Assembly: GCF_000155675.2 (NCBI RefSeq)
Contig: NC_020911.1
Location: 424,501 to 488,500, forward strand
DNA length: 64,000 bases
Direction: 5' to 3'
From: Octadecabacter antarcticus 307
GTDB lineage: Bacteria > Pseudomonadota > Alphaproteobacteria > Rhodobacterales > Rhodobacteraceae
Below, one piece after another: positions 13,827 to 62,918 of this stretch. Position numbers and translations under genes: made by a program. The stretch's first letter is position 1. The number at the start of each line of letters is the position of its first letter. The notes beneath the pieces are model-generated. The model saw only the letters and a list, made by a program, of their open reading frames with translations. It was not told the origin of the DNA and ran no database searches.

Positions 13827-14162
13827 TTAAGCGGCCATCTTGTCGATGATCCTTCTCTCTAAAAATTCCATTGGCGTCAGGTTCCCCAGAGCTGAATGTG
13901 GTCTGCGCCAGTTGTAGTCGTCCTGCCATTCTTCAAGCGTTTTGCGGGCGTCGCCCAATGTAGCAAACAGCGTTTCATTGAGGCATTCATCTCTTAGTTT
14001 ACCGTTGAAGCTTTCGATGAACCCGTTCTGCTGGGGCTTGCCCCCTCTCATGGTTTGCAAGCAAACCACTGCCGGGCGGCGGGACGCGATATAATGCCAA
14101 TCGATACCCGTATTTTGAACCCATTTGAGGATCGCCATGCTGGTGAATTCTGTGCCGTAACA
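13827..14162 (-). pseudogene. IS3-family orfB, 3' half (integrase domain end)
   Basis: Encodes the end of the rve integrase core: [24 protein letters not shown], then [18 protein letters not shown] with the catalytic Glu, then the usual [15 protein letters not shown] end. Between HYIA and GKPQQNGF sit 14 residues that do not belong to the family; they are translated from a palindromic element at 14044-14083. The gene is cut at 14162 by the IS110-family insertion; about 27 codons between this half and 15857 are missing. Confidence 0.85.
14044..14083 (+). repeat. ~40-bp palindromic element, copy H1 (in-frame in IS3 orfB)
   Basis: Begins CCTCTC, has the core GGTTTGCAAGCAAACC, then CTGCCGGGC. 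Compared with the expected IAPGKPQQN protein sequence the net insertion is 39 bp, so the frame is kept and the element is translated. Confidence 0.75.
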
Positions 14163-14185
14163 CCTTCGGAATATCGCTAATTTAA

Positions 14186-14235
14186 GGCTATGACTGCCTG
14201 CGCAGCCCCAAATAACGCAGCAGGTGGTCATAGCC
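14186..14235 (+). ncRNA. Long hairpin in the left end of the nested IS110 copy, candidate bridge-RNA segment
   Basis: GGCTATGAC (14186-14194) pairs perfectly with GTCATAGCC (14227-14235), and inner CCTGCG/CGCAG pairing extends the stem. It lies 57 bp before the transposase ATG. IS110-group elements encode a structured bridge RNA in the noncoding end next to the recombinase, so this is a reasonable candidate. I cannot identify target and donor loops without intact copies to compare. Confidence 0.35.
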
Positions 14236-14291
14236 GTGCCTCAGGTCCCTACGGTGGTTTTGTACAAACCACACCGCAAAGGAGACCAACT

Positions 14292-15553
14292 ATGACCGAT
14301 ATCATTATTACACAAACTGCGCCCGTTTTGGTGGCCATCGATATCTCGAAGGCCCGCGACGAAGTTCTCATTGCTATTGCGGACAAGAAGCGCTGCCGTC
14401 GTTTGACTGTTCTGAACCAGCTAGACGACTTCAATCGTCTAATCACATCGCTTGCCTGCTACGGCCGCCCTGTCCGTGTAGCTTTTGAAGCAACGGGTAA
14501 TTATCACCGTGCCTTGGCTTATCATCTTGCCGCAGCAGGTTTTGAGTTGAAGTTGGTGTCATCTGTGGCCCTGGCCAGAACGCGAGAGGCCTTGCACAAC
14601 AGTTGGGACAAAAACGACCCTAAGGATGCCCAGGTCATTCTTCACATGATGGAGATCGGGAACGAGCAGTTTTATCATGCCCCCCTCGTGCGTGGCACTA
14701 ACGACATCCAAGAGCTTTCCAAAACGCATGACATCGTATCCAAGTCGAAGACCGAGTTGTGGCACCGAGTTGTGGCACCGAGTTTTAACCCATTATCTGC
14801 CGCTGTATTTTCCTGAAGCTGATCGTTTCCATCGCAGTTCTCGCAGTTCTCGCAGTGACTGGTTCTTTGCTTTCCTTGAACGTTATCCGTCACCACACTT
14901 GATCTCAGCCATGAGCAAGGAGGCATTCATCGCTGACGCTTGGGATGTGGTGGGCCTCAAGGTTGCAAAAGAGCGTTTACTTTCAGATATCTACGAGACT
15001 GCCAAAGTATCAGTCGGACTGCCGGTTGCCGCAGATTCCGACGCGATAAGCATGTTCAAAAGGAACGTCAGAGTAGCCCTGCTACAGATCGCCTCGCAGC
15101 ACACTAAATCAGGTCAAAGGGGGGTGGCCGGATGCCCCGGAACCCCCGGCCGGATCAAATCGGTATGGGTGGCCGGATTGCCCCGGAATACGCAATGCTT
15201 TGACAATTTTGGCAGAAGCTGGGGATGTACGGCGCTTTCGTCATCACCGGCAGTTTTTGAAGTTCTGTGGAATGGACCTTGCGACTATGCAATCAGGTAC
15301 ATTCAGAGGGCAAACCAAACTGTCAAAATATGGCAATGCTCGGCTTCGTTGAACGCTTTGGATGGCTGGACAGGTTGCTATTCTGCAGCGCACCAACAGC
15401 TTCCGCGACAAGTTCGAGCGCTACATCGCCAAAGACCGTCACAACACCCATTTGCGCCGAAAGGCGTACACCGCAATCGCAGCGAAGATGGCCCGAACCG
15501 TTCATGGGATCATCAAGCACGGCGAACCATATCGCCCCTTCTTTGAGGGGTGA
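14292..15553 (+). pseudogene. IS110-family transposase, broken by small duplications and an IS21-like fragment
   Basis: ATG 14292 follows AAAGGAGACC. The DEDD half is recognisable: VAIDISKARDEV (first Asp), VAFEATGNYHRALAYHL, then WDKNDPKDAQVIL. A 13-bp perfect tandem duplication (14756-14768 and 14769-14781) shifts the frame after TELWHRV. The correct frame then continues LTHYLPLYFPEADRF...RSDWFFAFLERYPSP. A 74-bp foreign piece at 15120-15193 replaces the helix-hairpin-helix region; family sequence resumes at NALTILAEAGD. Further shifts follow before the final HLRRKAYTAIAAKMARTVHG...PFFEG. Not functional. Confidence 0.88.
15120..15193. repeat. IS21-like terminal-repeat fragment inside the IS110 transposase
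   Basis: Three degenerate copies of a 22-23-bp unit with core GGCCGGA start at 15126, 15148 and 15171, each followed some bases later by CGG. Multiple short subterminal repeats of this kind are typical of IS21-family ends. No istA/istB is present, so this is a footprint or deletion remnant. Confidence 0.55.
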
Positions 15554-15856
15554 TCGACAGCAGTAGGACCTTTCTCTGTAAGGGCCGTGGAGGCAGACAA
15601 CTGACCTCGTAGATAATGTTTAGGCCTTCTGCTCAACGACCCAAAGATCTCGTCTTAAGGACGGTGAGAGCCGCAAAAGCGTACTCTGTGTTTGTTATGG
15701 GAGAGACAGTTCGTTGACCAAAATGCCAAACTGAGCAATGCTTCTAACGTGTCGAGACGCCTCGATGCGACAATAACCTGACGCCAATTCAGCTAATCAT
15801 TCCGCGCATAGGACGTTATCGACACGTATGGTTTGGGGTTTGCCGCGCTCAGCATG

Positions 15857-16364
15857 ATGTGTCCGCGACAAGTACCAGGTTCTCGCGGCTGAAGTCATCG
15901 ACAACCGTCAGAATACGAAACCGGCGACCGTCAGTCAGCGCGTCAGACACAAAATCTAATGACCATCTCTGGTTAGGACCATCACAGGCAGCACCATCGG
16001 CTTCCGCGTGCCCAAAGCGCGCTTTCTACCGCCCCTACGACGCACTTGGAGCTTCTCTTCAGTGTAAATGCGTCTCACCTTTTTGTGGTTCACCGCAAAG
16101 CCTTCGCGCGCGATCATCACATGAACACGACGGCAACCAAACCGTCGCCGCTCCCTCGAAACCCGCTTGATGGCATCACGCAACTCAGCGTCATCGCCAC
16201 GGCGAGACGGATACCGCACCGTTGATCGATCAACTTGCAAGACATCGCACGCCCCCTCTCGGCAGATTGCTTTGCAATCGCCTGCCGGGCAATGGTCGCT
16301 GGCTAACCTGATGAGTTTCCATCAAGTGAACCACAGCTTTAAGCTTCCCAACGGGCGTCACCAT
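15857..16364 (-). pseudogene. IS3-family orfB, 5' half
   Basis: The natural start is the ATG at 16364, reading MVTPVGKLKAVVHLMETHQVSQ. A 40-bp palindromic element at 16255-16294 then breaks the frame; removing exactly 40 bp restores QRRAC before DVLQVDRSTVRYPSRRG. The family sequence continues RRFGCRRVHVMIAREG...NHKKVRRIY, and after one more small frame shift near 15985 gives GPNQRWSLDFVSDALTDGRRF (first catalytic Asp region), ending at LVADTS where the IS110 copy begins. Confidence 0.85.
16255..16294 (+). repeat. 40-bp palindromic element, copy H2 (in IS3 orfB)
   Basis: Begins CCTCTC, core GATTGCTTTGCAATC, then CTGCCGGGCAATG. Deleting these 40 bp rejoins CAGCGAC with GGGCGTGC as Gln-Arg-Arg-Ala-Cys, the expected IS3 orfB sequence. 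Confidence 0.85.
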
Positions 16365-16662
16365 TTTTTTGAATTGATGTCTCGCAACATTGCATTGTCC
16401 CTCGCCTGACAGGGTATTGCGCAGCAATGTCCCGAGAAGAGAGCATCTGTTCCGCTAGCAGCTTCTTTAGCTTCCCGTTCTCGTCTTCCAAGGCCCGCAA
16501 CCGCTTCGCGTCAGACGGCTCCATGCCTCCATACTTCGATGTGTATTTATAGAACGTCGCTGAACTGATCCCGTGCCGCCGACATACATCAGCAGTCTTC
16601 TCCCCAGATTCCTGTTCTTTGATAATTGCTATGATCTGTTCGTCTGTAAATCGTGCCTTCAT
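16358..16662 (-). pseudogene. IS3-family orfA (helix-turn-helix protein), interrupted by a palindromic element
   Basis: ATG 16662. Encodes the HTH_Tnp_1 domain (FTDEQIIAIIKEQESGEKTADVCRRHGISSATFY) and the leucine-zipper-like SDAKRLRALEDENGKLKKLLAEQML. A 41-bp palindromic element (16400-16440) then interrupts it. Removing the 41 bp gives DNAMLRDINSKKW and a TGA at 16358, with A7 just before, the expected -1 slippage signal that would place ribosomes in the orfB frame. This agreement supports the reconstruction. Confidence 0.88.
16400..16440 (-). repeat. ~40-bp palindromic element, copy H3 (in IS3 orfA), divergent
   Basis: On the minus strand it reads TCTTCTCGGG, then CATTGCTGCGCAAT, then CCCTGTCAGGC. 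Same plan as the other copies (ATTGC/GCAAT stem) but less similar; 41 bp by reading-frame reconstruction. Confidence 0.6.
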
Positions 16663-19039
16663 TTGTCCGTCCTTTTGTTGGGCGGACTCTACACAAATCT
16701 GGAGGAGTTTTAGGGGCGCAGGTCACGACAACGACGGTGTTGCTCCGGATTTTTCGCTACCCACCTTCAAGGGCCGCAATGCTACTCAACGCAAACTTCT
16801 CGCATCAATAAAGCTGCCAGCCCTTGCGACTGGCAAAGGCATATACACGCTCGACGGTGATGATAAGGCGTCGAGGGTATCCCAGGTTTTCGAGTATCAG
16901 GGCGATCCGCACGCTTGGGATGACGGGAGAAATCTCATTTGCCATCATCAAAAGGGAAACCGAACCTGCGAGGTATCGTTTAATATTTTCTCGAATGAAC
17001 ATCTCCTCGACGAAATCGACAGGCTGATGACACAGAATGGACTACTTGAAGGGCCAGTCTGTGGGTGTTGTGGCGCTCGGTATCTGGATGCACCGGACGA
17101 GTTTATCTTCAATGGAACGCACGGCAAACTCGCGCCCGCGCGTAGAGGGAAGCGGCCGAAGCCTTCTGGATTCCGGATCATTCATAAACCCTGTAAAGGG
17201 CAGCCCGGTGCGCGTATCTCCGTTTCCCTGGACCATCAGGCACAAAAGAAGAAGAGCGATAATGGTGCGCCTGCTCAGGGAGTTGGTCAATGGCGCAAGT
17301 ATCAACGACCTCCAACGCCTTTTGTCGGACCCCGATACGGGCAAGAAATGCGGTGTGAGCCGTATTTACAGTCGTATTTTCTTTTTGGAAAAGATCCTGC
17401 TCGCGTTTGAGCGCGCGAAACTGCAAGATTGGAAAGCTAAGGAAGACGCATCCGACCGGTTCAGCCATATGCGCATCGCGCACGATGATGTGGTCATTTC
17501 AGTAAACTGGGAAAGTCGGTTTGATCGCCGCCTGACGCCTCTTCACTGCTCGGTCAGCGCAGACATCCGCAGTGGATATGTCTTCCGGATTGATGCCAAC
17601 TTCGACCCGCGTGTCGATCCTGCTGCTTTCTTCGAAGAGCACTACCTCGATGTTGCCGGCCAGCCCCGCAATATCCGTAAACAATACACCCAGAAGTCTG
17701 GCAAGGTCGTGAGCGCCCCATTGCTTCACTTCCAAAGGCCGAGCGGTAGGTTTGATGAGGCCGCGTTCTTTGCCAGCGCCGAGAGTAGCTGGCGGGTTTT
17801 TGAGGAAAAGTTGAAGAAGGCCTATGAGGAAGACATTTCTTGCGGCATTGATCTGCCCGATGATGTTCAGCAAGGTCTTTGGGAATCAGGTGCGCGACGC
17901 CGGGTTCTCAATGAGATCCGCAACGGATACTTCGGCCTTGTAGATACCAACCGCGATCACCGCGGCAGTTTCAAGGGGGTAGTCGTTAAACAGACCTATA
18001 CAAAGGCTGCGCACCTTGCGTGCCTGCGAAAGATGCTGCCAGATGGCAAGATTACCCTGGTTGGCGAACAAGAAGCTGCGATGGTGCGAGTTGTCCCTCA
18101 CATTTTCCGAGACTTGATTAGGGAGGACAAGTTCGAATGGTTTGTGATGTCCTTCGACAAGGAAGCTTCTACGCCAACGAACCAAAGCCGTATCAAAAAA
18201 TTCGAAAAGGCGTTCGAGGAGTTTGGTGAGATTCAGACGCGGATTGTAGGCGAAGAGCTTCCGAGATGGGAGCTATTGAGACGGTTCTGCGCAGCAGGGC
18301 TAATGCCAGCAGTGAAGACTGATAGCCAGGACGCGGTGCATCCTTTTCCGATCGCCAACTTTCAATCTGCCCAGTTCCCACAGTTCTGGGCCAGCTCGCC
18401 TGTCCAGCATTACGGTGAGACCGAAAAGACGGTGGGCTTTCCAGTGCTCCGGTCAAAATAGCGAAAGCGTTTGAAGTCGGTAGGCTTCGATCAAAAGATA
18501 GCTGATGACGATCTAAGGGAGGCGCTCGCTCGTCGTGTGTTGAACACCACAATCCAGCCTGTATGAACCGCTTTTATGAACTCTGTGCGGAGCCGGATCA
18601 GTCCAACCGCGCGGGCAGGTGGGCGCGGCAGTCGAAACGGTCCCAGCTACATAAACGGCGCAGTATTTAATCCTGCTAGCTTGGTCGCCCTGCTCAATAT
18701 CTATCGCGTGTATTACAACTGGTTCGAGACACGGCAGTATGTAGCGTCTGGGTCGTCGGGGCAGGGCACAACCGAGGTGGCCCAAGGTGTCTCTACAGTG
18801 CGGGTTCCTGGATCGTCCAAATCCCTGAAAGTCCCGAAGCGGCGAACCGCCGCGCCGGTAATGCGGACCCCGGCGATGCGGCTGGGTGCCGACAATCCAA
18901 AGAACAAGGCACCTGATCCACGCAGGATCTTTTATCGACCTTGGTTGTTCCACGGCACACCGCTTTGGAGAAAGTTCGAGACACGGTAATGGCTTTCTCA
19001 ATCAAGAGGCCCCCGCGAAATAAATCGCGAAAGCCTCTA

Positions 19040-19065
19040 TGTGTCCCAAAAGCCGGAATGCGTCA
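19040..19065 (-). repeat. Right terminal inverted repeat of the outer transposon
   Basis: Begins TGTGTCCCAAAAGCC and is the exact reverse complement of 13440-13465. The 9-bp target duplicate GGTCAAGGC follows at 19066-19074. Confidence 0.9.
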
Positions 19066-19087
19066 GGTCAAGGCCGCGCCCCTTTTC
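19066..19087. terminator. Right half of the split bidirectional terminator
   Basis: Target duplicate GGTCAAGGC, then the arm CCGCGCCCC (19074-19082) and TTTT, ending directly at the permease stop codon. It pairs with 13424-13432 when the transposon is removed. As it stands neither convergent gene keeps the full hairpin. Confidence 0.75.
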
Positions 19088-20773
19088 TTATGCCCTGTGC
19101 GCAGCGACCTGACGACACAGCAAGATCACCGGCAGCAACCCGATTGCCCCAATCAAAAGGCTTGGCACTGCCGCGCCGTTCAGCCGTTCATCGGACGCCA
19201 ATCGGAATGCCTGAACCGCCAATGTATCAAAGTTGAACGGCCTCATGATGAGCGTGGCAGGTAGTTCTTTCATGACATCGACAAAGACTATCAACGCGGC
19301 AGTCAACAGGCTTGGCGTTAGGATAGGCACGTGAACGCGGCGCACGGTGCCAATGGAATTTTGCCCCAAAACGCGGCTGGCGGCGTCAATGTTGCGGCTA
19401 ACGACGGCAATTCCGCCTTCATAGGCGCCCAACGCGGCGGCGAGAAATCTAATCATATACGCGCCGATCAGCAGCCAGATGGATCCCGTAAACAACAACC
19501 CCGTTGAGACATCAAAGGTGGCGCGCATCCAGGCATCCAGCGCATTGTCAAAGGCCGCAAAGGGCACGATTAAACCAACCGCAATTACGCCCCCCGGCAC
19601 GGCATACCCGATCCGCGCGATATACAGCGCCGCCGCCGCCGAACGAGTTTCGCGCAACCGGTTGAGACTCCCCAGTAAGACCGCAGCTGCGACCGTGACC
19701 AATGCCGCAATAGTTGCCAAAGTCAGTGAATTTTTGATGAAGTGAACGTATCGCGGACTGAACAGATTTTGTTCTGACCCTACCGCCATAACGGACAATG
19801 CCAGCACCGGAATGATAACGCCGAGCATAACTGGCAAACCACACAAGATCACCGCGCCCCACTTAGTGACACCTGCCAGTGGAATGCGACCTACCACGTC
19901 TTGGCGTTTGCCGTTACTGAACCGCGCGCGGCCCCGATTTGCGCGTTCCAACATCGCCAGAAGCAACGCGAAGGCCAGCAGCCCAAGCGATAATTGCGCC
20001 GCTGCGCCACGATCGGCCATGGAAAACCAACTGTTGTGGATGCCAGTCGCCAACGTTTGTACTCCGAAATAGGACACGGTGCCGAAATCCGCGATCGTCT
20101 CCATCATTGTGAGAAGAACACCCGCTGCAATGGCAGGGCGCGCCAAGGGCAGGGATATCGACAGGAATGCACGCACGGGCGATTTGCCCAACGATCGCGC
20201 CGCAAGGAACGTCGTCGCGCTTTGCCCCAGAAACGCGGCGCGCGCGAGCAGGTAGACATAGGGGTACAACACTAAGATTAGCATGATCGCCGCGCCGCCC
20301 AAACTGCGAATTTCAGGAAACCAATAGTCGCGTGGCCCCCAGCCGGTCACATCGCGCAGTGCGGCTTGGACGATGCCGGGATGGTCCAGAACATGGGTGT
20401 AAGCGTAGGCCAAAACATAGGCGGGAAATGCCAGGGGGATCACCAGCGCGACCTCAAGCCAGCGCCGACCTGGGAAGTCGGTCATCGTCACTAACCACGC
20501 TGACACTGTACCTATCATAAAAGTGCCAAAACCCACAATGACGACCAGGCCGGCGGTGTTGCGCATATAGTCATCGAGAACCGTCCCGGCGAGGTGGCGC
20601 AGCGTGTCGGTATCGCTCGAAAATGATGCAAGCCCGACCGCAAGGAACGGCAAAAGACAGAACATCGCAATCAGGAACGCGAGCAAGGCCATCGTTTTGT
20701 CGGCCATAAACCACGACGGTTTCGCGGTCGGGGGGGGCGCAGTTGGGGTGGGGTTTTGTGTGCTGTCGGACAT
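19088..20773 (-). CDS. Fe(III) ABC transporter permease, two fused BPD domains
   Basis: 561 aa with about twelve membrane helices in two BPD_transp_1 domains, the FbpB/AfuB layout. Both EAA-type loops are visible: AARSLGKSPVRAFLSISLPL in the first half and DAASRVLGQNSIGTVRRVHV in the second; they dock the ATPase. A proline-rich cytoplasmic N-terminus precedes helix 1. The partner binding protein is the convergent gene at 12385. No ATPase gene is in the window, so the ATPase must be elsewhere. The ORF is intact despite the adjacent insertion. Confidence 0.92.
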   Translation of the reverse strand: MSDSTQNPTPTAPPPTAKPSWFMADKTMALLAFLIAMFCLLPFLAVGLASFSSDTDTLRHLAGTVLDDYMRNTAGLVVIVGFGTFMIGTVSAWLVTMTDFPGRRWLEVALVIPLAFPAYVLAYAYTHVLDHPGIVQAALRDVTGWGPRDYWFPEIRSLGGAAIMLILVLYPYVYLLARAAFLGQSATTFLAARSLGKSPVRAFLSISLPLARPAIAAGVLLTMMETIADFGTVSYFGVQTLATGIHNSWFSMADRGAAAQLSLGLLAFALLLAMLERANRGRARFSNGKRQDVVGRIPLAGVTKWGAVILCGLPVMLGVIIPVLALSVMAVGSEQNLFSPRYVHFIKNSLTLATIAALVTVAAAVLLGSLNRLRETRSAAAALYIARIGYAVPGGVIAVGLIVPFAAFDNALDAWMRATFDVSTGLLFTGSIWLLIGAYMIRFLAAALGAYEGGIAVVSRNIDAASRVLGQNSIGTVRRVHVPILTPSLLTAALIVFVDVMKELPATLIMRPFNFDTLAVQAFRLASDERLNGAAVPSLLIGAIGLLPVILLCRQVAAHRA

Positions 20774-20842
20774 GACCGCTTGCTACCCTATCGCCTGCGC
20801 GGCGTCTATCTAAGACCTATTGTTTTAGTCGGGATTAAGGCA

Positions 20843-21001
20843 TCAGTCAGCTGGGCGATCGTCATATTCGTAACGCAGGATACGCGCGGCGTCGCCATCG
20901 GGGTCTTCATATTGGTCTGACCGAAGGGTCCATAAGAAACCGACAAGGCCGAGCGCACCAAGCGTGAGAGAGATCGGAATGAGGTAGGCGAGAACATTCA
21001 T
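20843..21001 (-). CDS. ccoS: cbb3-type cytochrome oxidase assembly protein CcoS
   Basis: A 52-aa single-helix membrane protein that reads MNVLAYLIPISLTLGALGLV and then GFLWTLRSDQYEDPDGDAAR, the diagnostic CcoS/FixS pattern (helix followed by W..RSGQYDD..GD..RIL). Its ATG overlaps the ccoI stop region, so it is the last gene of the ccoGHIS group. CcoS is needed for heme and copper incorporation into cbb3 oxidase. It is intact, although ccoI is not. Confidence 0.9.
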   Translation of the reverse strand: MNVLAYLIPISLTLGALGLVGFLWTLRSDQYEDPDGDAARILRYEYDDRPAD

Positions 21002-21002
21002 A

Positions 21003-23187
21003 TCACCGAACCCTCAGGGCATTAAGGGACACGATAATTGAACTTGTCGACATGGCAATTGCGGCCGACAGCGGCGTGGCAAAGCCGAAGAAAGCAAAGG
21101 GAACCGCAATCATATTGTAGCAAGCCGCAACGCCAAAATTTTCGAGGATACGCTGACGGGCAGAACGCGCGATCCGCAAAGCGTCTTCTATCTTTGAAAC
21201 ATCACCAGAGATCAGGACAATGTCAGCGGCAACCCGCGTGGCGTCCAACGCGGATGCAGGCGCGATAGAGACGTGCGCCAGTGCCATCGCCGCTGTGTCA
21301 TTCAACCCGTCACCAACCATCAGAACGTGCTTGCCTTGTGTGCTTAATTTTTTAAGAAACTTCGCTTTCTCGGTTGGCAGGACGTCAGAACGCCAATCAG
21401 TAAGGTTAATTATTTCTGCGAATCGTTTAACATTTGACGCGGTATCGCCGGACAATAACGTGACAGGCAGACTTCGATTCTGCAGGTGTTCCAAAAGCTG
21501 GCCAACGCCCGCCCGCAAGATGTCTTGAAATTCAAAGGTTGCATGGATGTGGTCATCGACAGCCAGAACTGTGCCTTGTCCCGCTAGGCCCGCCCAGTCA
21601 GCCCGCCCCAGCGCGACGCGTTTGCCATTCCAAAACCCTGAAATCCCGTAACCCGGCAGTTCCTTGATGCCGGTCAGTGTGACAGTCGGCAATTCCTGGC
21701 CTTGCGTCGCGGCGACGATGGCGCGGCTGCGCGGATGTGCTGACGCCATGGCAAGCGTTGCTGCAAGAGCGAGGTCCTGCGGCGCGATATTGCGTAGATT
21801 CAACAGCGCCGGCTTGCCCAAAGTCAGTGTACCAGTCTTGTCAAAGATAACGGTGTCGACTTCGGCCAAACGTTCCAGTGCGGTTGCGTGTTTCACAAGC
21901 AAGCCACGACGAAACAGCGCACCGGAGGCGACTGTGGACACCGCAGGAACCGCCAAACCCAAGGCGCAAGGACAGGTGATAATCAGCGTCGCGACCGCGA
22001 TGTTAAGGGAATAGCGCACGTCACTGCCCGACGGATACATCCACATCACAAAGGCCGCGAACGCCAGCAGGTGCACGGCGGGCGCATAGATCGCGGCGGC
22101 GCGGTCCGCGAGTGAATTGTAGCGCGATTTAGCTTCTTCCGCGACAGAGATCAGGTCAGCGAGGGAGTGCAAACGTATCTTTGCCAACGGCCGTCACCCG
22201 CACGTTGAGCGGTCCTGTGAGATTGATTTCACCGGCACGCAGGATGTCATCGGGCCACACACAGACGGGGTCGGACTCGCCCGTCAGAAACGCGAGGTCA
22301 AGTTCGCTTTCGCCACGCATGATCTGTCCGTCGACCGGCATCCGCGCGCCGGGTCGGACAAGAACAAGATCGCCGATGCAAAGATTAGACAGAGACACCG
22401 TTTGCGGTATTCCATCGTTCAGGCGCAAGGCAGTTGGCGTTTCCTGCGCAGCAAGTTCCGTGGCGGCCGAGCGCGCCACAGTACGGGTGCGCTGGTCAAG
22501 GTAGCGCCCAGCCAGCAGGAAGAAGGTCAATGACAAGGCTGCGTCAAAATAGGCGTGATCGCCAGAATTGGCGACTTCAAACAATGACATTCCAGCGGCC
22601 AGAAAAATGGCGAGAGAGATCGGGACATCCATGTTGAGCCGCGCAACACGCAAAGCCCGCCAAGCGTTTACGTAAAATGGCTGCGCTGCGAAGATGATCG
22701 TCGGCAACGCGATGACAGCGGAAATCCAGTGGAACAGATCGCGGGTGGCATCGCTGGCCCCAGACCATACTGCAACAGACAGCAGCATGACATTCATCAT
22801 CGCAAAGCCTGCCACACCAAGGCGCATCAAAAGATCACGCGCGGCACGGTCAGAATGATTGGCCGATAATGTGGCTTGGTCCAGTGGTTGCGCATCATAG
22901 CCCAACGCCGCGAGCGCTTCTGTCAGCATCACGTCATCAATGTCGGGGCTTACATGCACTGTCGCTCGTTTGCGGGTCAGGTTCACCCGCACATGCGACA
23001 CCCCGGTCAAGTCCATCAAGCCACGTTCAACAATTGAAATGCAGGCAGCACAGTGGATCGTGGGAAGGGACAGCGCGACTTCGCGGTCGCCACGCTTTGC
23101 GGTATTGCCTGCCTGCTCGGTCGCAAGTGCTGTGGCGTCGCATCCGGGGCAGGCGGACAGGCCGATATGGGCATCTGCAACTGTCAT
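21003..23187 (-). pseudogene. ccoI: Copper-transporting P-type ATPase CcoI, frameshifted
   Basis: P1B-type ATPase that supplies copper to cbb3 oxidase. ATG 23187 overlaps the ccoH stop as ATGA. First part: N-terminal CPGC, heavy-metal domain HCAACISIVE, membrane helices and the actuator TGESDP. At about 22170 the frame breaks (expected GKDT-x-LHSLADL; here one net extra or two missing bases), and the second frame carries TCPCALGLA, the phosphorylation site DKTGT, GDGLNDTAAM and the C-terminal helices. Everything on each side is well conserved, so the lesion is recent or a sequencing error. Confidence 0.9.
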
Positions 23188-23636: not shown

Positions 23637-23639
23637 GAT

Positions 23640-25940: not shown

Positions 25941-26133
25941 TTTGAGCCTCCGGACCTTTGGTGGTGTCGTTGACTGGACCGTCTTCGTGGCGGAATATGA
26001 CGTTGGCGGCATCGTCGTGCAGATCGCGTGATCCGGGGCGGAAGGCCCAAAACCACACGAACGCAAGAAAGATAAACAGCGCGAGCAACGCCCAGCTATC
26101 GGCGAGTTCGCGAAGGAATATATAGGTGTCCAT
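25933..26133 (-). CDS. ccoQ: cbb3 oxidase small subunit CcoQ
   Basis: 66 aa with one membrane helix ([19 protein letters not shown]) followed by the conserved RPGSR and an acidic cytoplasmic tail. Size and position between ccoO and ccoP are as in other ccoNOQP operons. CcoQ stabilises the complex. Confidence 0.92.
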
Positions 26134-26144
26134 GTGCTGTCCCC

Positions 26145-26861: not shown

Positions 26862-26935
26862 AATCAGCCTCCTTATTCAGCGGGAATGGCCGCGGTGGAA
26901 TCAGCAGCATGTTGCTGCTTTCCGAAGGCTGTCAT

Positions 26936-44985: not shown

Positions 44986-45366
44986 TCGCCGCCGAAATTG
45001 CACAACCAAACCCCGTTCCTACCCCCTAGTCCACCATTGGCACACAGGTGGCACATCGCGTACACAGGCTGTGCACAACCTGTATGCACACTTTTTGATT
45101 TAGACCGCGCTGACGAATGGCGTTGCGCAGTCTTTGCGGATTGGCAGATGCACGATGCCAGAAAGCGTGTCCATTTAACGCAGCCCATAGATATGCGTGA
45201 CGAGCCCGCTTCACGACTTGGCTGATGGATTATTTGAATTCCAGTTTGAACGCTGCCGCCGGGCGTCCAAAGGCGCGACATTGGGGATGAGTTGAATTGG
45301 TATTTTTGAACCAAAGAAGCCGCGACGTGGATTGCGGGGCACGGTTGGTCTGCGTAACAAGGCCGG
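44986..45366. other. 381-bp intergenic region with palindrome
   Basis: No open frame here has recognisable protein content on either strand. It contains the 20-bp near-palindrome at 45064-45083 and two short repeats of CACAGG nearby. The zapE ATG follows directly. Confidence 0.5.
45064..45083. repeat. 20-bp near-palindrome, copy 2
   Basis: ACAGGCTGTGCACAACCTGT, identical to copy 1 at 3920-3939 except one base. Both lie in intergenic gaps. Confidence 0.6.
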
Positions 45367-51383: not shown

Positions 51384-51437
51384 GGGACCCTCAAATTATG
51401 TTGGGTTTGAAATAAGCGCACAGGACGCGAAATGCAA

Positions 51438-52683: not shown

Positions 52684-52792
52684 TCTTTCAGACTGCCGCG
52701 TGCTGGAGTCTAAGCCAAGTATAATGCGACTTGTAGGCAAAGCCACTGCGATTTAGACGGTTTGCAAGTTAGATTTCCCAAAAGGTACCGTG

Positions 52793-54526
52793 ATGACCCG
52801 CAAAGCAACCGACAAGACGAACCTGCCCAGCCGCCATGTCACAGAAGGCCCGTCGCGCGCGCCGCATCGGTCGTATTTCTACGCGATGGACCTGACCGAA
52901 GAGCAGATTAATCAACCATTTGTCGGCGTGGCCACCTGCTGGAACGAAGCAGCGCCTTGTAACATTTCACTGAACTGGCAGGCCCGATCGGTCAAACGTG
53001 GTGTCAAAGAAGCAAGCGGTACGCCGCGCGAATTTACCACCATCACCGTCACCGATGGCCTTGCGATGGGCCACGAGGGCATGCGGTCGTCGTTGGCATC
53101 GCGCGATGCGATTGCGGACACGGTTGAATTGACGATGCGCGGCCATTGCTATGATGCGATTGTCGGTCTGGCGGGCTGCGACAAATCCCTGCCGGGGATG
53201 ATGATGGCCATGGTGCGTCTGAACACGCCGAGTGTTTTCATGTATGGTGGGTCGATCCTGCCGGGTCGCCACGAAGGCAAAGACATTACCGTTCAGGATA
53301 TGTTTGAGGCTGTTGGCAAATACCAAGCGGGTCAAATGACAGACGCTGAATTGGCTGTGATGGAACGGGTTGCATGCCCGTCTGCGGGTGCCTGCGGTGG
53401 TCAGTTTACGGCCAACACGATGGCTTGCGTTTCTGAGGCGATCGGCCTCGCGCTTTTGAATTCATCCGGCATGCCCGCGCCCTATGAAGACCGGGCGCAA
53501 TACGGTGAGGCGTCGGGCCAAGCGGTTATGAACCTGATCGCAAAGAACATCCGCGCCCGCGATGTGGTGACGCGCAAGTCGCTGGAAAATGCGGCACGTG
53601 TCGTCGCCTGTACAGGTGGGTCGACCAATGCTGGCCTACACCTGCCTGCAATTGCACATGAAGCGGGCATCGATTTCAACCTGTTCGACGTTTGTGACAT
53701 TTTCAGAGACACGCCGTATTTTGTCGATCTTAAGCCGGGTGGTCAGTACGTGGCAAAAGACATGTTTGAGGTCGGCGGTGTGCCTGTCGTGATGAAAGAA
53801 TTGCGCAAAGCGGGCCTGTGGCATGACGATTGCATGACGGCCAGTGGCAAAGTCATCGGCGAAGAATTGGACATGATTAAGGGTGAGGCTGATGGCAAAG
53901 TTATTTACCCCGTTGAGAACCCGATCACCAAAACTGGCGGTGTTGTTGGATTGAAGGGTAATCTTGCCCCTGATGGTGCCATCGTGAAGGTCGCTGGCAT
54001 GTCTGACGACGAACAGGTCTTTACCGGTCCTGCGCGGGTGTTCGAATCAGAAGAGGACGCTTTTTCGGCTGTGAAGGCGCGCTGCTATAAAGAAGGTGAA
54101 GTGCTGGTTATCCGCAACGAAGGGCCGTCCGGTGGCCCGGGAATGCGTGAAATGCTGGCGACAACGGCGGCGCTGTCCGGTCAGGGCATGGGCAAGAAGG
54201 TCGCGCTGATCACTGATGGTCGTTTTAGTGGCGCAACGCGGGGCTTTTGCGTTGGCCACGTCGGGCCTGAGGCCGCACATGGTGGCCCGATTGGTATGCT
54301 GAAAGACGGTGACATGATCACGATGAACGCGGTGAGCGGGGAACTATCGGTCGATCTGACAGATGCAGAACTGGCGCAACGCAAGGCGGATTGGGTTGGC
54401 CCGAAAGAGACGATTTATGCGTCGGGCGCGCTGTGGAAGTACGCGCAACTGGTTGGTGGCGCGCTGAATGGCGCAGTCACGCACCCTGGCGCGAAACATG
54501 AACGCCACATCTATATGGATCTGTAA
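52793..54526 (+). CDS. ilvD: Dihydroxy-acid dehydratase
   Basis: 577 aa. Converts dihydroxy acids to 2-keto acids in isoleucine and valine biosynthesis (and feeds leucine). [Fe-S] ligand motifs: [23 protein letters not shown] and [39 protein letters not shown] ending. ATG 52793, one codon after the GTG. The divergent ACT-protein gene lies 106 bp upstream. Confidence 0.97.
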
Positions 54527-54531
54527 CAATA

Positions 54532-55215
54532 ATGTGGGTGCGCGGGTGTAATCTGGTGGTTTGCCTCATTGGATTGGGTGGCTGCGAAGGTGGGGCAGAC
54601 GGGGTTATGGGCCGGTTGGCCAGCATCGTCTCCGCACCCAGCGCCACCAGCCAAGGCATACGCACACTATCACTACTTGGGGGTAATGTGCGGGTGCGCG
54701 GGCCAGACGGTTATTGTGTTGACCAAACGGCCAGCGATGCGCGGCGCGGCTTTGCGGTGCTGGCCGGATGCGCGTTGTTGTCAGACGGTGCTGCGGTCAT
54801 GCCGAACCTTGACGGGTTGATTACCGTTCAATTTGGCGCTGAAAGCACGGCAAGCGTCACCGACAACGAAGAGGCCTTCGCGATGTTTTTGACGACGGAC
54901 ATCGGTCTTGGTCTTTTGGCGGGCAACGGAAATGCGGCGAATGTATCGCAGGCGGTTACGATCACAGACCGCGCGGGCGTGTTGGTGCGGTTCCACGACA
55001 CGTCGGGCCCTGCTTTTGCAGGCACGGCCGGCCCGCAGTGGCGCGGGTTCTTGGACATCAACGGCCGGCTTGCAACGATATCCGTGCTAAGCTTTGAGCG
55101 CGCGGTGTTAAGCCGCGCCGAAGGTGAGCGTTTGCTGGTCGTGGCGATGGCAGAATTGGCCGAAGCCAACGCGCCGACTGTCGCGCCACAGGCAACAAGA
55201 GACGATAATGGTTGA
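54532..55215 (+). CDS. Putative lipoprotein next to ilvD
   Basis: 227 aa. Its N-terminus (NLVVCLIGLGGCEGG) resembles a signal with lipobox LGGC. No family known to me. Only 5 bp after the ilvD stop, so it may be co-transcribed by position. Base composition like its neighbours. Confidence 0.6.
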   Translation: MWVRGCNLVVCLIGLGGCEGGADGVMGRLASIVSAPSATSQGIRTLSLLGGNVRVRGPDGYCVDQTASDARRGFAVLAGCALLSDGAAVMPNLDGLITVQFGAESTASVTDNEEAFAMFLTTDIGLGLLAGNGNAANVSQAVTITDRAGVLVRFHDTSGPAFAGTAGPQWRGFLDINGRLATISVLSFERAVLSRAEGERLLVVAMAELAEANAPTVAPQATRDDNG

Positions 55216-55301
55216 TTTAGCGAGAATTAATTCGCTAATTTTTTCCTCTTGCGAAACAATTTGGCATATATGATTCTGACAAAAGGATTCTATCGGACCC
55301 C

Positions 55302-56075
55302 ATGGGACAACGACGCACAGGACTGTTTGAAAAGCTGCTGTCGCGGGGCACGCGGGCATTTTGGTCCCGTGCGGCGAATGCGGCTGGAACCACAGATTTA
55401 TCCGTCCTGCGCAGTCAGCGGACTGAGGCGCGCATTTTACGCCAGAAACTGGATGAGTTGACCTATACGGCCGACAGCCGCCTTGCATGGCCGCGCATCG
55501 GATTGTCGAATTTTCCCAAGCCAGCGGGAACGGATTGGTCGTGGCGCCCGCAACTGTGGCGTGGCGCGTTGCCATTCAAGGGGATCAGTGGCGTTGAAAG
55601 CAAGACGATGCTGGGTGATGAGGTCACGATTTTTCACGACTGCCAGATTTCGGAACTGACGCTGCGCCAGCTGCGCAACACCCGTCAAGAGGATTTGGCC
55701 CCATTTGGCTTGCGAATGGACGTGTTCCAATTCGATGGGTCATTCCTCAGCCTTGTGCTGGCGCTGCCGCAATTATCTTGCGAAGGTTTGACGCGGCGAC
55801 ATCTTTTGCGGATGGAAGCGATCGTGGAGACTGAAACGCCGTTGGAGATTTTCGCTCGGATAAATGTGCGGCATGGGCCGAACACAGAACAGATTGTTCG
55901 CGAACTGCCGCTTGATGATGGCAAGGTGATGGTGGAGTTTGATCTGGCCTATACCAAGCTGAACGAAAAGCGCGTTGAGTCCATGTGGATCGATTTGATC
56001 TTTGAGGGTCCTCAGATGAACCAAGTGACGATACGCGATGTGACATTCTCGCGCAATCCTCGCGCGGAGCTTTAG
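55302..56075 (+). CDS. DUF6478-type conserved protein
   Basis: 257 aa, soluble, no signal. Begins MGQRRTGLFEKLLSRGTRAFWSRAA and has WPRIGLSNFPKPAGTDWSWRP with a beta-rich remainder. I associate it with the DUF6478 family of Rhodobacterales from memory. Function unknown; it precedes a second small conserved gene by 8 bp, so the pair is probably one unit. Confidence 0.7.
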   Translation: MGQRRTGLFEKLLSRGTRAFWSRAANAAGTTDLSVLRSQRTEARILRQKLDELTYTADSRLAWPRIGLSNFPKPAGTDWSWRPQLWRGALPFKGISGVESKTMLGDEVTIFHDCQISELTLRQLRNTRQEDLAPFGLRMDVFQFDGSFLSLVLALPQLSCEGLTRRHLLRMEAIVETETPLEIFARINVRHGPNTEQIVRELPLDDGKVMVEFDLAYTKLNEKRVESMWIDLIFEGPQMNQVTIRDVTFSRNPRAEL

Positions 56076-56083
56076 GGGTTTGG

Positions 56084-56476
56084 ATGTCTGATAAGATATT
56101 GCTGACGAAACTGCGCCTTGTTGAAGGCGTCTGGCATGGATCGCTAAAGCACCTTGGGCGCAAGGGCACCTGGCAGCCAAATATCGAAGTTACGCATCTG
56201 GATTCTCCTATCGACGGGGTCGATGTGCAAGAAGACCGCGTCGAGGAATGCTGGCACGTGAGCGTACCGATCCCCGCCGACAGAATTGCCGACGGGGTAC
56301 AGACGTTTGTTATTACGGACCGCAATGAGGACGTGCTGCTCGGCAGTTTTTCAATCGTCGCGGGGGATGCTTTGGCAGAAGATATCCGAGCCGAGTTGTC
56401 GTTACTACGCGCAGAGCTGGACATGCTGAAGAAAGCGTTTCGGCGTCATTGCGTTGAGACGCTGGGTGGTGGCTGA
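56084..56476 (+). CDS. Conserved hypothetical protein, partner of the DUF6478-type gene
   Basis: 130 aa; a beta-sandwich-like body (VWHGSLKHLGRKGTWQPNIEVTH, FVITDRNEDVLLGSFSIVAG) ends in a helical coiled-coil-like tail (AELSLLRAELDMLKKAF). Starts 8 bp after the preceding stop. Function unknown. Confidence 0.7.
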   Translation: MSDKILLTKLRLVEGVWHGSLKHLGRKGTWQPNIEVTHLDSPIDGVDVQEDRVEECWHVSVPIPADRIADGVQTFVITDRNEDVLLGSFSIVAGDALAEDIRAELSLLRAELDMLKKAFRRHCVETLGGG

Positions 56477-56514
56477 ATTGGTCTAAGATCGAATTGGCTG
56501 TGCCAATCAGACCA

Positions 56515-56572
56515 AGTGGGGGCCAGCCCCCAGTTCTGGGGCGCTGCCCCGCCCTACGGGCTCCCCGGGATA
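56515..56572. terminator. GC-rich hairpin cluster after the DUF6478 pair
   Basis: GGGGGC-CA-GCCCCC (56518-56531) is followed by GGGGCGCTGCCCC and CCCCGGGATATTT. A similar GC-rich unit ending in a CCCGGG-ATATTT tract is a common intergenic feature in roseobacters and probably terminates transcription; I base that on recall, not on a search. Confidence 0.5.
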
Positions 56573-56612
56573 TTTATGAGACAAAGACGAGGTGACGCGG
56601 CGTTTGGGGTGA

Positions 56613-58682
<2,070 letters not shown>

Positions 58683-58730
58683 CCAAACACCCAAAGGGAA
58701 CCAGACATAATCGCACTCAGACATTGGATC

Positions 58731-59371
58731 ATGTTTGGGATACTGGCGCTGGGCGTCGCGGCCTGTTCATTTGCGGCCCTCGCATCGAACAACGACGCGG
58801 ACATCATTGTGGTTGGGGTTTGATCCTGCATGGCATCGCAGATTTGGCCGCTCTATTCCCAATGTCGTTGAACGCTCGACTGGCTTGACGGTGCGCGTTG
58901 AGTCGATCAGCGGTGCGCGGTTTTTGGGGTCATAGGGCATTCTGACGCAATATATCGCCAGTAATTGGGATTGGGTCATCGCATATGGTGGCGGCAATGA
59001 TCTGGCCTTGGGTTTCCAAACGCCAAATGCACGGCGTGTGTTGGATGAATTGATTTCATCGAATGGCAGTCAGGGTGCAATGCCGGCCGTGGTAAACAAA
59101 GTCGTGGCGCAAGGCGCGCAAGTGATTGTCCTCGGTTATTATCCAGTGAGGGATCTTTGTGGCCCATTTGCGCCCTGCATTGCGGTTTTGGATGAATTGG
59201 CGGCGCGTCAAGCGCGTTTGGCGGCGTCAAACCATGACGTGACTTTTGTCGATAGTGGGCTGGTTATCAGGCGGGGCAATGCGCTGGCCTGATCTGGTGC
59301 ATCCGTCGCCGCGCGGTGCGGCGCTGATTGGGGAATTGATTGCGTCGGTGATCGTGCGTAACACAAGGTAA
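58731..59371 (+). pseudogene. SGNH/GDSL hydrolase, inactivated
   Basis: Three in-frame pieces together match an SGNH-type lipolytic protein: a lipobox-like start (LGVAACSF...NNDADIIVVG), the body RRFGRSIPNVVERSTGLTVRVESISGARFLG, then ASNWDWVIAYGGGNDL...VIVLGYYPVRD, and PDLVHPSPRGAALIGELIASV with the catalytic Asp/His block. Breaks: a frameshift at the nucleophile GDS (near 58821), TAG at 58933-58935, and a shift near 59288. Confidence 0.75.
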
Positions 59372-59517
59372 CCAAGGATTAGAAACATTGTGTTTCTCTG
59401 TTTCCTGCCCTGCAACAGTCCCGCCATAACCCCGCAATTGTCATGCCCGTGCCGCAGTGTTGCCCCTTTTGGCGGCAATACATACCTCGAACAAGAGATG
59501 TCAATCGAGGATCAATT

Positions 59518-60423
59518 ATGGATCGCCTTAGTGAAATGGAAGCCTTTGCCACAGTCGTGGATCAGGGTGGATTTACAGACGCTGCCAAGAAAATGGGGAT
59601 TTCAAAATCTGCTGTTTCTAAGCATGTTTCATCGCTTGAGGCGCGCCTTGGTGCTCGTCTTTTGAACCGCACAACACGGCGTGTCAGCCCCACCGAAATC
59701 GGCCTTGCTTATTACGACCGTGCCCGCCGCGTTCTAAACGATGCAGGCGAAGCGGATGCATTGGTCACGTCGATGCAATCTGCACCCTCTGGTCTGTTGC
59801 GCATCAGTGTGGCGACAGATTTCGGGGTCAATCACCTGTCACCTGTGCTCGGTGATTTCCTTGGGGAGTTTCCTGACATCACGGTCAACATGGTTCTCAA
59901 CAACCGCTACGTCGAACTGATTTCTGAAGGCTTCGACATGGCGATCCGCATCGGTGAGTTGGAAGACAGTACATTGCGTGCCCGTAAACTGACGGAAACG
60001 TCGCGCCGCATGATCGCCTCGCCGGGGTATTTTGAACAATTCGGGCGGCCGCAAAAGATCGACGATTTGAACGATCACAAGCTGCTGCACTATTCGAACC
60101 AGTCAAATTCTGCCGTGTGGAAACTGAAAGCGCCGTCCGGTGAAAAACGCCAAGTGCGCACCGCAGGTTGGCTAACGGTGAATGACGGACAGTCCTTGCT
60201 GAATGCTGCAATTTCCGGCCTTGGCATCGCCTATTTGCCGTCATTCCTTTATGCAGATGCACTGGCCAAAGGTCTGGTTGAAGAAGCGATCCCCGATCTT
60301 CCGGTCGATACCCAAGGCATTTACGCGGTCTATCCACCGGGCCGGTTTACCCAGCCGAAAGTGCGCGCGTTCATTGATTTTCTCGTGCATTCGTTTGCAG
60401 AGAAGGGTCCAGATATCTGGTAA
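59518..60423 (+). CDS. LysR-family transcriptional regulator
   Basis: 301 aa. N-terminal HTH AKKMGISKSAVSKHVSSLEARLGARLLNRTTRR (residues about 21-53), the CrgA-like subgroup with TTRRVSPTE and IGELEDSTLRARKL. ATG 59518 follows GAGGATCAATT; the ORF start at 59443 is far upstream. A clear terminator follows at 60484-60520. Target genes unknown. Confidence 0.9.
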   Translation: MDRLSEMEAFATVVDQGGFTDAAKKMGISKSAVSKHVSSLEARLGARLLNRTTRRVSPTEIGLAYYDRARRVLNDAGEADALVTSMQSAPSGLLRISVATDFGVNHLSPVLGDFLGEFPDITVNMVLNNRYVELISEGFDMAIRIGELEDSTLRARKLTETSRRMIASPGYFEQFGRPQKIDDLNDHKLLHYSNQSNSAVWKLKAPSGEKRQVRTAGWLTVNDGQSLLNAAISGLGIAYLPSFLYADALAKGLVEEAIPDLPVDTQGIYAVYPPGRFTQPKVRAFIDFLVHSFAEKGPDIW

Positions 60424-60483
60424 CCCAACTAAGTTCCAAACGATTTCAACATGATACACCTAGGGCTTCGTGCCCACATCTTA

Positions 60484-60520
60484 ACGCAGCCCGTCCAAAT
60501 TCTTGGGGGCTGCGTTTTTT
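60484..60520 (+). terminator. Terminator after lysR
   Basis: ACGCAGCCC (60484-60492) pairs with GGGCTGCGT (60507-60515), followed by TTTTTT. Confidence 0.85.
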
Positions 60521-60673
60521 ATGTGCCGTCGAGAAACGGGTATCTGGTCGAGGACATTTTGTGCGTTTAACAAACGGTCGTTTTTGGAGCCGACAGTTTT
60601 TTCCGTGCAGTCTTTGTAAGTTAGGGATAAATTGCCCATAATATGCATTTATTGATAGCACTTGGAGCCGATA

Positions 60674-61315
60674 GTGAGAAAAACGATCCGTCACCGACTG
60701 TTGTTTTGGCCGATCATTGGCATTGTAATGATTGGAATCGTTTTGATGGTATCGGTCATTGACCGCATCTACCCAATCGACACCGGGGAAAATGGGTTCC
60801 TAGAGATTGCAGGATTGATCTTACTCATTGTCATGATGTTTGCATGGTTTGCAGCGGTGGTGACTGCCTTCCGAAGCGACTTGAGCGATCGCATGGGCTT
60901 TGTCGCTGTATTTTTGATGTTTTCTGCAATTTCTTTTGGGGCGGCAGGGCGCGAAACAACTTGGGGGAAAATATATGGGCTGGACGAAGCGACAGTCGAC
61001 TACCTCACACTGACATCAGCGATTATCTTCCTGATATTTTTCATAATTTCCATCACACTGATCTGTGTACGGCTCCGCGGACGTAGGGCATTCTTTTGGA
61101 ATCTGTTAACTTCGCACCCGATGGGTTGGATTATATGCGGGCTCGTGTTGTTTGTTATAGGAACATTTTTTGAAGAAAATATTTTCGGTATAGAGCCGCA
61201 TCAACTTTTCGAGGAGGCGCTTGAGCTCTTAGCTTATTTGAGCGTCACCATCGCAGCTTTCGCCTTTAGGTCAGCTATAAAAGTTTATGCGTCTTCAAGC
61301 GAGGGTGATCCATAA
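60674..61315 (+). CDS. Membrane protein, function unknown
   Basis: 213 aa starting at GTG 60674, where GGAG lies 6 nt upstream; the ORF's TTG 60662 would leave no ribosome site. Five predicted helices (PIIGIVMIGIVLMVSVI, FLEIAGLILLIVMMFAWF, and others). No motif recognised. More AT-rich than neighbours and lying beside an IS, so recent acquisition is possible. Confidence 0.6.
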   Translation: MRKTIRHRLLFWPIIGIVMIGIVLMVSVIDRIYPIDTGENGFLEIAGLILLIVMMFAWFAAVVTAFRSDLSDRMGFVAVFLMFSAISFGAAGRETTWGKIYGLDEATVDYLTLTSAIIFLIFFIISITLICVRLRGRRAFFWNLLTSHPMGWIICGLVLFVIGTFFEENIFGIEPHQLFEEALELLAYLSVTIAAFAFRSAIKVYASSSEGDP

Positions 61316-61506
61316 CCTTCCTTTTTGAAACATCCACCAACCACATCTTTTGACGCTGCCACAAATCCCGTTCAAAACCCGAGCGGTTGTTAAAGGTTTT
61401 TTGCCCCTACCGTGAAACCTGATGGGGTGGATGCCTCCTGCTCCAACCAGCGTCGCAATGCGCTATACTGCAGGTGTCGATATCTGCATATGAGAGGAGC
61501 CACCCC

Positions 61507-62566
61507 ATGCAAGTTACAACAATAAGCGTTGATCCATCGACCGGCAGGCGAATTTGCAGCAATCGCTGAGAGGTTGGCCAAGAACATTTTTCAAGTTCAC
61601 GGGATCGCTAGAGACGAAGAGGTCGTCTTCAACAGGCCGTTGAGACGCGCACAACTATTACCGTTCTTCACGAAGCTTGAACCCTGTCTCATTGGTATGG
61701 AGGCCTGTAGCAGTGCGCATCATTGGGCTCGGGAGTTCACAGCGTTGGGCCATATTGTCCGCCTGATCCCGCCGATATATGTCAAACCATACGTCAAACG
61801 CGGGAAGTCCGACGCCATCGATGCCGAGGCCATTTGTGAAGCGGTAACGCGTCCGACGATGAGATTTGTTGCGATAAAAACCGTTGAGCAACAAGCTCTG
61901 CTGTCGCTCCATCGCGCACGGGCTCTGCTTGTCCGACAACGCACCCAGTTGATCAATGGCTTGCGTGGTATGGTCGCTGAGTTCGGCGTTTACATCGCGA
62001 AGGGCCTCGCGCGGGTCATCGGATTTGCAGAGGATATTTTAGTAGGCGAAGTGCTAGATCTGCCCGAGATTGCCAATGAGGTGATCCATAACCTGTGTGA
62101 GCACCTCGTGGCACTTCACGCCCGAATCCGGTGGTATGAAGAACGGCTCAAGCTGGTCGCCAAGGAAGATGCGCGGGTCCGTTTATTGCGTACTATTCCA
62201 GGCGTTGGTGTTGTGACAGCCTCGGCAATCATCGCCAGCATTGGTGACGGCCATCAGTTCCGCAATGGCCGTGAGTTTGCAGCATGGCTGGGTCTGACGC
62301 CTGCAAACAAGTCCAGCGGCGGGAAAGAGAAACTGGGGCGCATTACGAAAATGGGTGATCAATACTTACGATGCTTGCTCGTCGTCGGCATGACATCACT
62401 TGTCCGACAGACCAAATCCCACCCGGAGCGCGCCAGCAAATGGCTAACATCGTTGCTGGAACGAAAACCAGCGCGCGTCGCAACTGTCGCGATGGCAAAC
62501 AAAACGGCAAGGATTGTCTGGGCGGTCCTGACCCGCAACGAACCATACACACCCCACACAGTTTGA
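61507..62566 (+). pseudogene. IS110-family transposase, disrupted by a 40-bp palindromic element
   Basis: ATG 61507 (with AGAGGAG upstream) starts MQVTTISVD; the frame is broken by a 40-bp insertion at 61534-61573, after which the family sequence LAKNIFQVHGIARDEEVVF continues in another frame. Removing the 40 bp gives Val-Asp-Leu-Ala-Lys with no other change. The DEDD half has MEACSSAHHWARE, SDAIDAEAICEAV, then C-terminal IPGVGVVTASAII, WLGLTPANKSSGGK and ITKMGDQYLR. Everything else is intact, so the loss is recent. Confidence 0.92.
61534..61573 (-). repeat. 40-bp palindromic element, copy H4 (in IS110 transposase)
   Basis: On the minus strand it begins CCTCTCAGCGATTGC and ends CCTGCCGGTCGATGG. 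Its exact 40-bp removal restores GTT-GAT-TTG-GCC. Confidence 0.9.
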
Positions 62567-62918
62567 GAGACAAAGGAACAACGAGTTAGCAAGACCTGCG
62601 AGATGATGATGCATAAGTCTGCCGCTAAAATCAAGACACCCCGCCGAATGGCTCGGGCATTAAAGCCCGCAAAGCTGATAGGGACTTGGTTTGCGGAATC
62701 CATCAGGGCCAGCGGTCAAAACCGCGCAAACAGGCCCCTCTCATTGATTGCTTTACAATCAACTGCCGGGCAGCGGGAACACATGACTGCTTCTGACAAA
62801 TGCACAAATCTGATCAAATATGTCTTGCTATGCAGGAGCCATCCACACAAGTCATTCGCAGCGCTACCGAATTTTGGCAGGATGGGTTTTTCCTGCCGTT
62901 TGCGGCACTCGCTCTTAT
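62567..62918. other. IS110 right noncoding end and flank before the OmpA gene
   Basis: No gene in these 352 bp. It holds the noncoding right end of the IS110 copy, where bridge-RNA sequences may lie in IS1111-type members, and palindromic copy H5 (62737-62776). Confidence 0.6.
62737..62776 (+). repeat. 40-bp palindromic element, copy H5
   Basis: Begins CCTCTCATTGATTGC, has TTTACAATC, then CTGCCGGGCAGCGG. Matches H2 closely; lies in noncoding IS110 right-end sequence. Confidence 0.85.

Follow-up and report, generated by a model that had tools for sequence, protein, structure and literature searches.

Short palindromic hairpins inserted into insertion sequences of Octadecabacter antarcticus: a candidate family of non-autonomous mobile elements of Rhodobacteraceae

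The window analyzed here, 64,000 nucleotides of the genome of Octadecabacter antarcticus 307 (NC_020911.1, positions 424,501 to 488,500 of the forward strand), contains five copies of a short palindromic element. A preliminary description had proposed that the five segments form one family of elements of about 40 bp, which insert into genes of insertion sequences (ISs). All five are present, and they do represent one such family, which is found almost only in Rhodobacteraceae. Interspersed copies as well as empty homologous sites were found, as is expected for non-autonomous mobile hairpins in general. We favor the explanation, with a probability of about 0.58, that the element is a non-autonomous mobile hairpin, which an enzyme supplied in trans moves in the form of a folded single strand, and that ISs are its habitat and its vehicle.

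The anatomy was derived from 124 distinct sites. The element starts with CCCTCTC, continues with a freely varying stem-loop with an inner length of mostly 17-25 nt, and ends with CTGCCGGGC, usually followed by ARYG; the total length is 37-45 bp. Conservation of the ends in these sites is partly a result of construction, because not more than one mismatch per end, a palindrome filter, and an [ACG][AG][CT]G tail were demanded during collection. In contexts collected without demanding a tail, ARYG was present in 118 of 152 cases. Pairing was analyzed with 267 distinct sequences, for which end mismatches were limited in the same way and no palindrome filter was used. Up to four Watson-Crick pair types occur at the inner stem positions, and at inner lengths of 17-21 none of 100 shuffles reaches the pairing frequency that is seen at most positions of the main register; the inner lengths 22, 23, and 25 exhibit mixed registers. 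In a common class of elements the first pairs are followed by an unpaired A. The internal loop is fixed, with TCTC opposite of CTGCC. TCTC and CTGCC are conserved in sequence, the stem mainly in its pairing. The GATTGC/GCAATC stem, which had been regarded as a family feature, therefore has to be given up as such. A comparison of 10 element-bearing loci with Rfam resulted in six matches, none of which lies over an element.

The strict pattern CCCTCTCN{15,25}CTGCCGGGC has 304 matches in the 4.88-Mb genome of O. antarcticus (159 forward, 145 reverse), which is represented by two contigs, the larger one with 4,812,600 bases; the reversed control pattern has none. The absence of further genomic copies, which the preliminary description had named as a refuting outcome, thus did not occur. 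Matches were found in 107 of 295 genomes of the family, including that of O. antarcticus, and control matches in 10 of the 295. The former number is an upper bound, because only 22 of the 30 first-listed family loci (L031-L060) look real, the others being chance matches or unclear (L033, L035, L036, L037, L042, L048, L058, and L060). Outside of the family, one of 380 genomes of the class matched with a longer pattern. This genome (G487), which belongs to another family of the class, contains three elements with three different stems (L205, L210, and L215). Matches were also listed for 151 plasmid records, 107 of which cover 80% of the query, chiefly from Pseudosulfitobacter, Sulfitobacter, Leisingera, and Phaeobacter, with candidate matches in a few other genera. 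Phage records yielded nothing convincing, 13 matched and none covered 80%. Local density can be high: eight elements, mostly in the same orientation, were observed within an IS-rich stretch of about 1.3 kb (L015 1501-2810; G000:C2:257151-258458).

Insertion is seamless, occurs adjoining GAYGR without target duplication and in both orientations, and at the 124 distinct sites target information is present only from -1 to +5, with the consensus C|GATGR. A scan of named genomes with the IS110 protein of the window retained 80 of 469 loci. No element was reported in 74 of these 80; a later comparison added one missed case (L281), and among the six element-positive loci two carry the element outside of the IS. 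The latter (L286 and L287), both on one chromosome of Leisingera aquimarina, where the element follows the start of the IS110 match at a distance of about 1.78 kb, have the variant CCCTCCC...CTGCCGGTC with one stem, possibly a subfamily. The N-terminus is uninterrupted and includes the LAKN motif in 29 unoccupied IS110 relatives, 28 of which also have the D. In the occupied copies L232, L282, L298, and L300-L303 removal of the element restores [VL]DLAKN; element 4 of the window was taken out by its coordinates, the elements of the other IS110 copies by a filter. The idea that the segments are native parts of the IS was therefore rejected, because most IS110 relatives are empty and removal restores the N-terminus and the frames. 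That all other copies of the IS might contain the segments, a further refuting outcome named beforehand, is contradicted by the same 74 loci. Insertion into IS coding sequences, as originally claimed, is borne out by hundreds of copies, by empty homologous sites in relatives, and by frame repair, and the proposed comparison of occupied and empty sites confirmed the ends and the absence of a target duplication.

Several other features of the sites were inspected. Terminal inverted repeats are lacking, as the ends CCCTCTC and ...GGGCARYG share only CCC/GGG, and no duplication was seen at the empty-site comparisons. The stem does not seem to guide the element to its target, stem and target having no shared words beyond those expected by permutation. 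Stem base 3 correlates with target position -6, the best result of 336 tests, which we tentatively put down to how the host genomes are composed in their bases. The mean run of inverted repeats in the target is 3.29, compared to 2.88-3.14 at eight shifted positions, a difference too small to be used.

Homologous sites are occupied recurrently. The IS110 site CTGGCCCT|GATGG contains different stems in different genomes (L053, L088, L100, L105/L106, and L067), and the same is true for the IS5 site ATGATC|GACGC and its near variants (L022, L032, L034/L073, L090, and L121-L124). Five pairs within genomes have identical elements at the same nucleotide of divergent IS copies with flanks that are 74-88% alike, i.e., L083/L085 (77 and 79% for the two flanks), L121/L122 (77 and 82%), L073/L034 (81 and 85%), L105/L106 (88 and 74%), and L124/L128 (88 and 81%); in the pairs L122/L124 and L121/L124 the elements differ slightly. 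Between genomes, near-identical elements reside in divergent flanks in L281/L105, L134/L184, and L214/L099. Gene conversion that drags the flanks along was rejected, as 29 pairs, selected partly by near-flank likeness, contain no tract of full or raised flank identity; their identity beside the element is 0.91 at 0-10 nt, 0.86 at 10-25 nt, and 0.82 at 25-50 nt. We read identical elements at the same site as probable repeated insertion at preferred sites by those stems that are active in the respective genome.

ISs are the predominant habitat. In a sample of 22 loci, each from a different genome, Pfam places an IS transposase domain at or beside the element in 15 (L031, L038, L043, L046, L050, L054, L056, L032, L034, L039, L040, L045, L049, L053, and L055), with L043 and L049 below the Pfam cut-off and L038 just below it. 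At L044, L052, and L057 an IS transposase is presumed from a motif alone, and none was found at L041, L047, L051, and L059. The clearest example of a vehicle is a 1,385-bp IS3 in the two-contig genome G013, which carries four elements, two in each orientation. It is present in six full-length copies in six different surroundings; five of the copies differ from the sixth at 3-12 positions, and a 3-bp duplication was found at three of the six. Therefore, loaded ISs have still been multiplied. Without its elements this IS3 has a length of 1,231 bp and an open OrfB of 308 codons, and no full-length element-free copy was found in the search of G013. It may have been multiplied via a transposase in trans, via an empty copy that has since been lost, or owing to removable elements. 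At L304, which lies on a plasmid of Sulfitobacter pontiacus, the gene annotated as an IS3 transposase spans an element, thus automatic gene calling can hide such insertions. Insertions directly before an Asp codon were observed in transposases of the IS6, IS5, IS3, and IS1182-like types (L069, L070, and L071 of G063, L034, L039, and L134). We take the Asp after the insertion to be catalytic in the IS5 motif MI|DATYLK, the IS6 motif IVT|DK (three IS6 of one genome), and the IS3 motifs HHT|DRGAQY and VIV|DVE.

The window itself illustrates these features. Element 1 (14043..14081, plus strand, 39 bp, stem ATGGTTTGCAAGCAAACCA) lies antisense within an IS3 OrfB, and its removal results in a continuous frame. 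Element 2 (16254..16294, plus strand, 41 bp, stem GGCAGATTGCTTTGCAATCGC) is antisense in the N-terminal part of an IS3 OrfB, and its removal leads to SQR|RRAMSC. Element 3 (16400..16440, minus strand, 41 bp, stem GGGACATTGCTGCGCAATACC) is degenerate, with the ends TCTTCTC...CTGTCAGGC, and is located in sense orientation in an IS3 OrfA, where its removal leads to EQML|DNAMLRDINSKKW. The IS3 fragments with these three elements span 13700..16620 on the minus strand, and a block that was identified by eye as IS110-like is nested at about 14170-15800. Element 4 (61535..61574, minus strand, 40 bp, variant ACCTCTC...CTGCCGGTC) is antisense and splits the ISVD|LAKN motif near the start of an IS110 transposase gene (61508..62566, plus strand). 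Element 5 (62736..62775, plus strand, 40 bp, stem ATTGATTGCTTTACAATCAA) lies, as had been noted, in the noncoding region of the IS110, 3' of the transposase; the same site is occupied in the IS110 relatives L269 and L276. Removal of the segments makes the frames continuous in IS3 OrfA (EQML|DNAMLRDI), in two OrfB stretches, and in IS110 (ISVD|LAKNIF). The lengths of 40, 40, and 41 bp given in the preliminary description were close, the first element being in fact one of 39 bp. The pattern CCCTCTCN{14,30}TGCCGGGC has three matches in the window and none in 100 shuffles. A perfect 27-nt inverted repeat (13439-13465 and 19040-19066) flanks a 5.6-kb block with the loaded IS3, and a similar spacing of the element pair 14043 and 16254 recurs elsewhere in the genome, thus the block may be copied as a unit. 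A separate palindromic repeat around CAGGTTGTGCACAACCTGT (3913-3951 and 45037-45093) is unrelated to the hairpin family.

How might the hairpins move? A putative trans-acting enzyme would recognize the fixed loop and the ends on a folded single strand and would insert this strand 5' of GAYGR. ISs would be tolerated landing places and would subsequently serve as vehicles for the multiplication of the elements and for their transfer between genera. Stems would change in compensated pairs, which would give each genome its own prevailing stems. Recognition of a folded single strand is suggested by the conservation of pairing rather than of stem sequence and by the lack of target duplication, and from shape recognition together with seamless insertion a single-strand reaction appears likeliest. 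Several results weigh against this explanation. No mover was found: Y1_Tnp (PF01797) is present in 31 of the 295 family genomes and missing from 16 of 20 element-rich genomes, and Y2_Tnp is present in 7 and missing from 13 of the 20. RVT_1 (PF00078) occurs in 7 of 20 element-rich versus 3 of 20 element-free genomes and is missing from 13 of the former, the relaxase PF03432 occurs in 10 of 20 of both groups, and neither is required. Left or right halves occurring on their own, as expected for a longer autonomous version, were looked for, and nothing convincing was found in the loci covered by that scan. Insertion or excision was not seen between near-identical genomes. The outer CCC/GGG helix departs from the consensus in 37 of the 267 sequences, 10 of which are compensated (six ACC/GGT from few sites, two GCC/GGC, one CAC/GTG, and one CCT/AGG), 9 keep a wobble pair, and 18 break pairing, so there is some support, albeit thin, for a paired outer helix. 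In addition, ACCTCTC...CTGCCGGTC is present in all five IS110 VD|LAKN copies that were found without demanding the variant (L053, L011, the window, L232, and L282), with differing stems, which suggests one origin and stem change in place instead of fresh insertion; further IS110 copies were found with a pattern that demands ACC/GGT and do not independently support the variant.

The last point leads to an explanation that we regard as rather improbable, namely, that the elements are old insertions, one per IS site, which have been inherited with the IS and the stems of which were later overwritten in each genome by conversion or template switching. It would account for the shared ends of the five IS110 copies, for one IS3 site that likewise has ACC/GGT with two stems (L142 and L304), and for homologous IS sites with different stems in different genomes. 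However, ACC/GGT was found at 4 of 15 sites with a preceding A and at 0 of the 132 sites with another base there, therefore the variant may follow the target, and identical elements in divergent IS copies are equally compatible with fresh insertion. This explanation would in addition require that the element was lost exactly many times, as it is absent from the majority of IS110 relatives. The first element base and its partner change jointly, from C-G to A-T, only after a target A (L142, L147, L304, and the IS110 VD|LAKN site). We consider, also with marked reserve, a more specific version of the mobile hairpin, i.e., that a recombinase of Rhodobacteraceae recognizes a hairpin of about 40 nt by its shape and, in the form of a folded single strand, both inserts it and removes it exactly, which would make the hairpin a new class of mobile elements. 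If so, exact removal would keep loaded ISs alive, and the hairpin would be an intron-like hyperparasite of transposons at the DNA level.

The remaining explanations fare worse. The hairpins might act like introns or bypassing elements, whose removal or skipping at the level of the transcript or of translation leaves loaded transposases functional. The multiplication of loaded ISs in G013, where no full-length empty copy was found, and frames that are intact apart from the elements would be in line with this, and so would dN/dS values of 0.05-0.32 in 10 of the pairs with finite values among the element-bearing IS110 copies window, L298, L301, L302, and L303, a comparison that includes four copies with gaps or stops. 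Yet the IS110 elements differ far less than expected from the dS of the gene, therefore the selection may predate insertion; both orientations are present within one transposase, and the length is a multiple of 3 in 25 and not in 99 of the 124 elements. Intron-like behavior is thus quite unlikely. Equally poor is the case for repetitive extragenic palindromic (REP) elements moved by a transposase of the RAYT type (Y1 HUH) or for relics of the IS91 type (Y2 HUH). Size, palindromic form, and seamless insertion are alike, REP elements not being known to duplicate their target, and the genome of O. antarcticus has 24 Y1_Tnp matches. Against this, Y1_Tnp is present in 4 and Y2_Tnp in 7 of the 20 element-rich genomes, the consensus has no GTAG or CGTC tag, and eight Y1 loci revealed no constant position of an element beside the gene. 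An origin from RAYT/IS200 or IS91 was rejected because the Y1 genes and Y2_Tnp, respectively, are missing from many carriers. Least credible is a defence system of hosts or plasmids that inserts hairpins at catalytic codons of transposases. It would fit several sense insertions directly before an Asp codon that we assume to be catalytic; however, GAY, the target, encodes Asp in any case, noncoding and non-catalytic sites are also occupied, and loaded ISs were still multiplied.

The mobile hairpin favored here adds to an old puzzle, small palindromic repeats without a known mover. It is an example, across a whole genome, of mobile elements that reside within others, which would explain some of the numerous transposon pseudogenes reported for Octadecabacter (PMC3646047). 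The terms "repeat" and "palindrom" do not occur in the accessible main text of that genome paper, and no description of the hairpin family was present among the matches listed for the open-licence PMC literature, a scope that excludes ISfinder and subscription journals. Named cultured strains carry the hairpins, e.g., on plasmid pDSHI04 of Dinoroseobacter shibae. As the copies number in the hundreds, the ends are sharp, the empty sites clean, the target simple, and the stem free in sequence, insertion, removal, and the enzyme are directly testable.

In yeast mitochondria, GC clusters and bypassing elements are likewise mobile hairpins with a length of a few tens of nucleotides, some of which lie inside genes. 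These are organellar and have different ends and targets. Miniature inverted-repeat transposable elements (MITEs) such as Correia/NEMIS, RUP, and ERIC are likewise small, non-autonomous, and mobile, but they have terminal inverted repeats and mostly target duplications (PMC2229807), whereas the sites read here have neither. Rickettsia palindromic elements, to which the hairpins had been likened, are also palindromic, located inside genes, and without a known mover; however, their length is 105-146 bp and they form in-frame fusions with the genes of the host (PMC2229807), in contrast to hairpins of 37-45 bp, most of which are out of frame, with IS genes as the main location, so the likeness applies to habit and fails for size and in-frame fusion. 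REP/REPIN elements with RAYT are small palindromic repeats of high copy number, the stems of which can also differ between subfamilies (PMC3733652). In contrast to the GTAG and CGTC superfamilies of REP (PMC3733652), the hairpins end with CCCTCTC and CTGCCGGGC plus ARYG without such a tag at the foot, they lie inside IS genes and not between genes (15 of 22 loci), and most of their carriers are devoid of Y1_Tnp.

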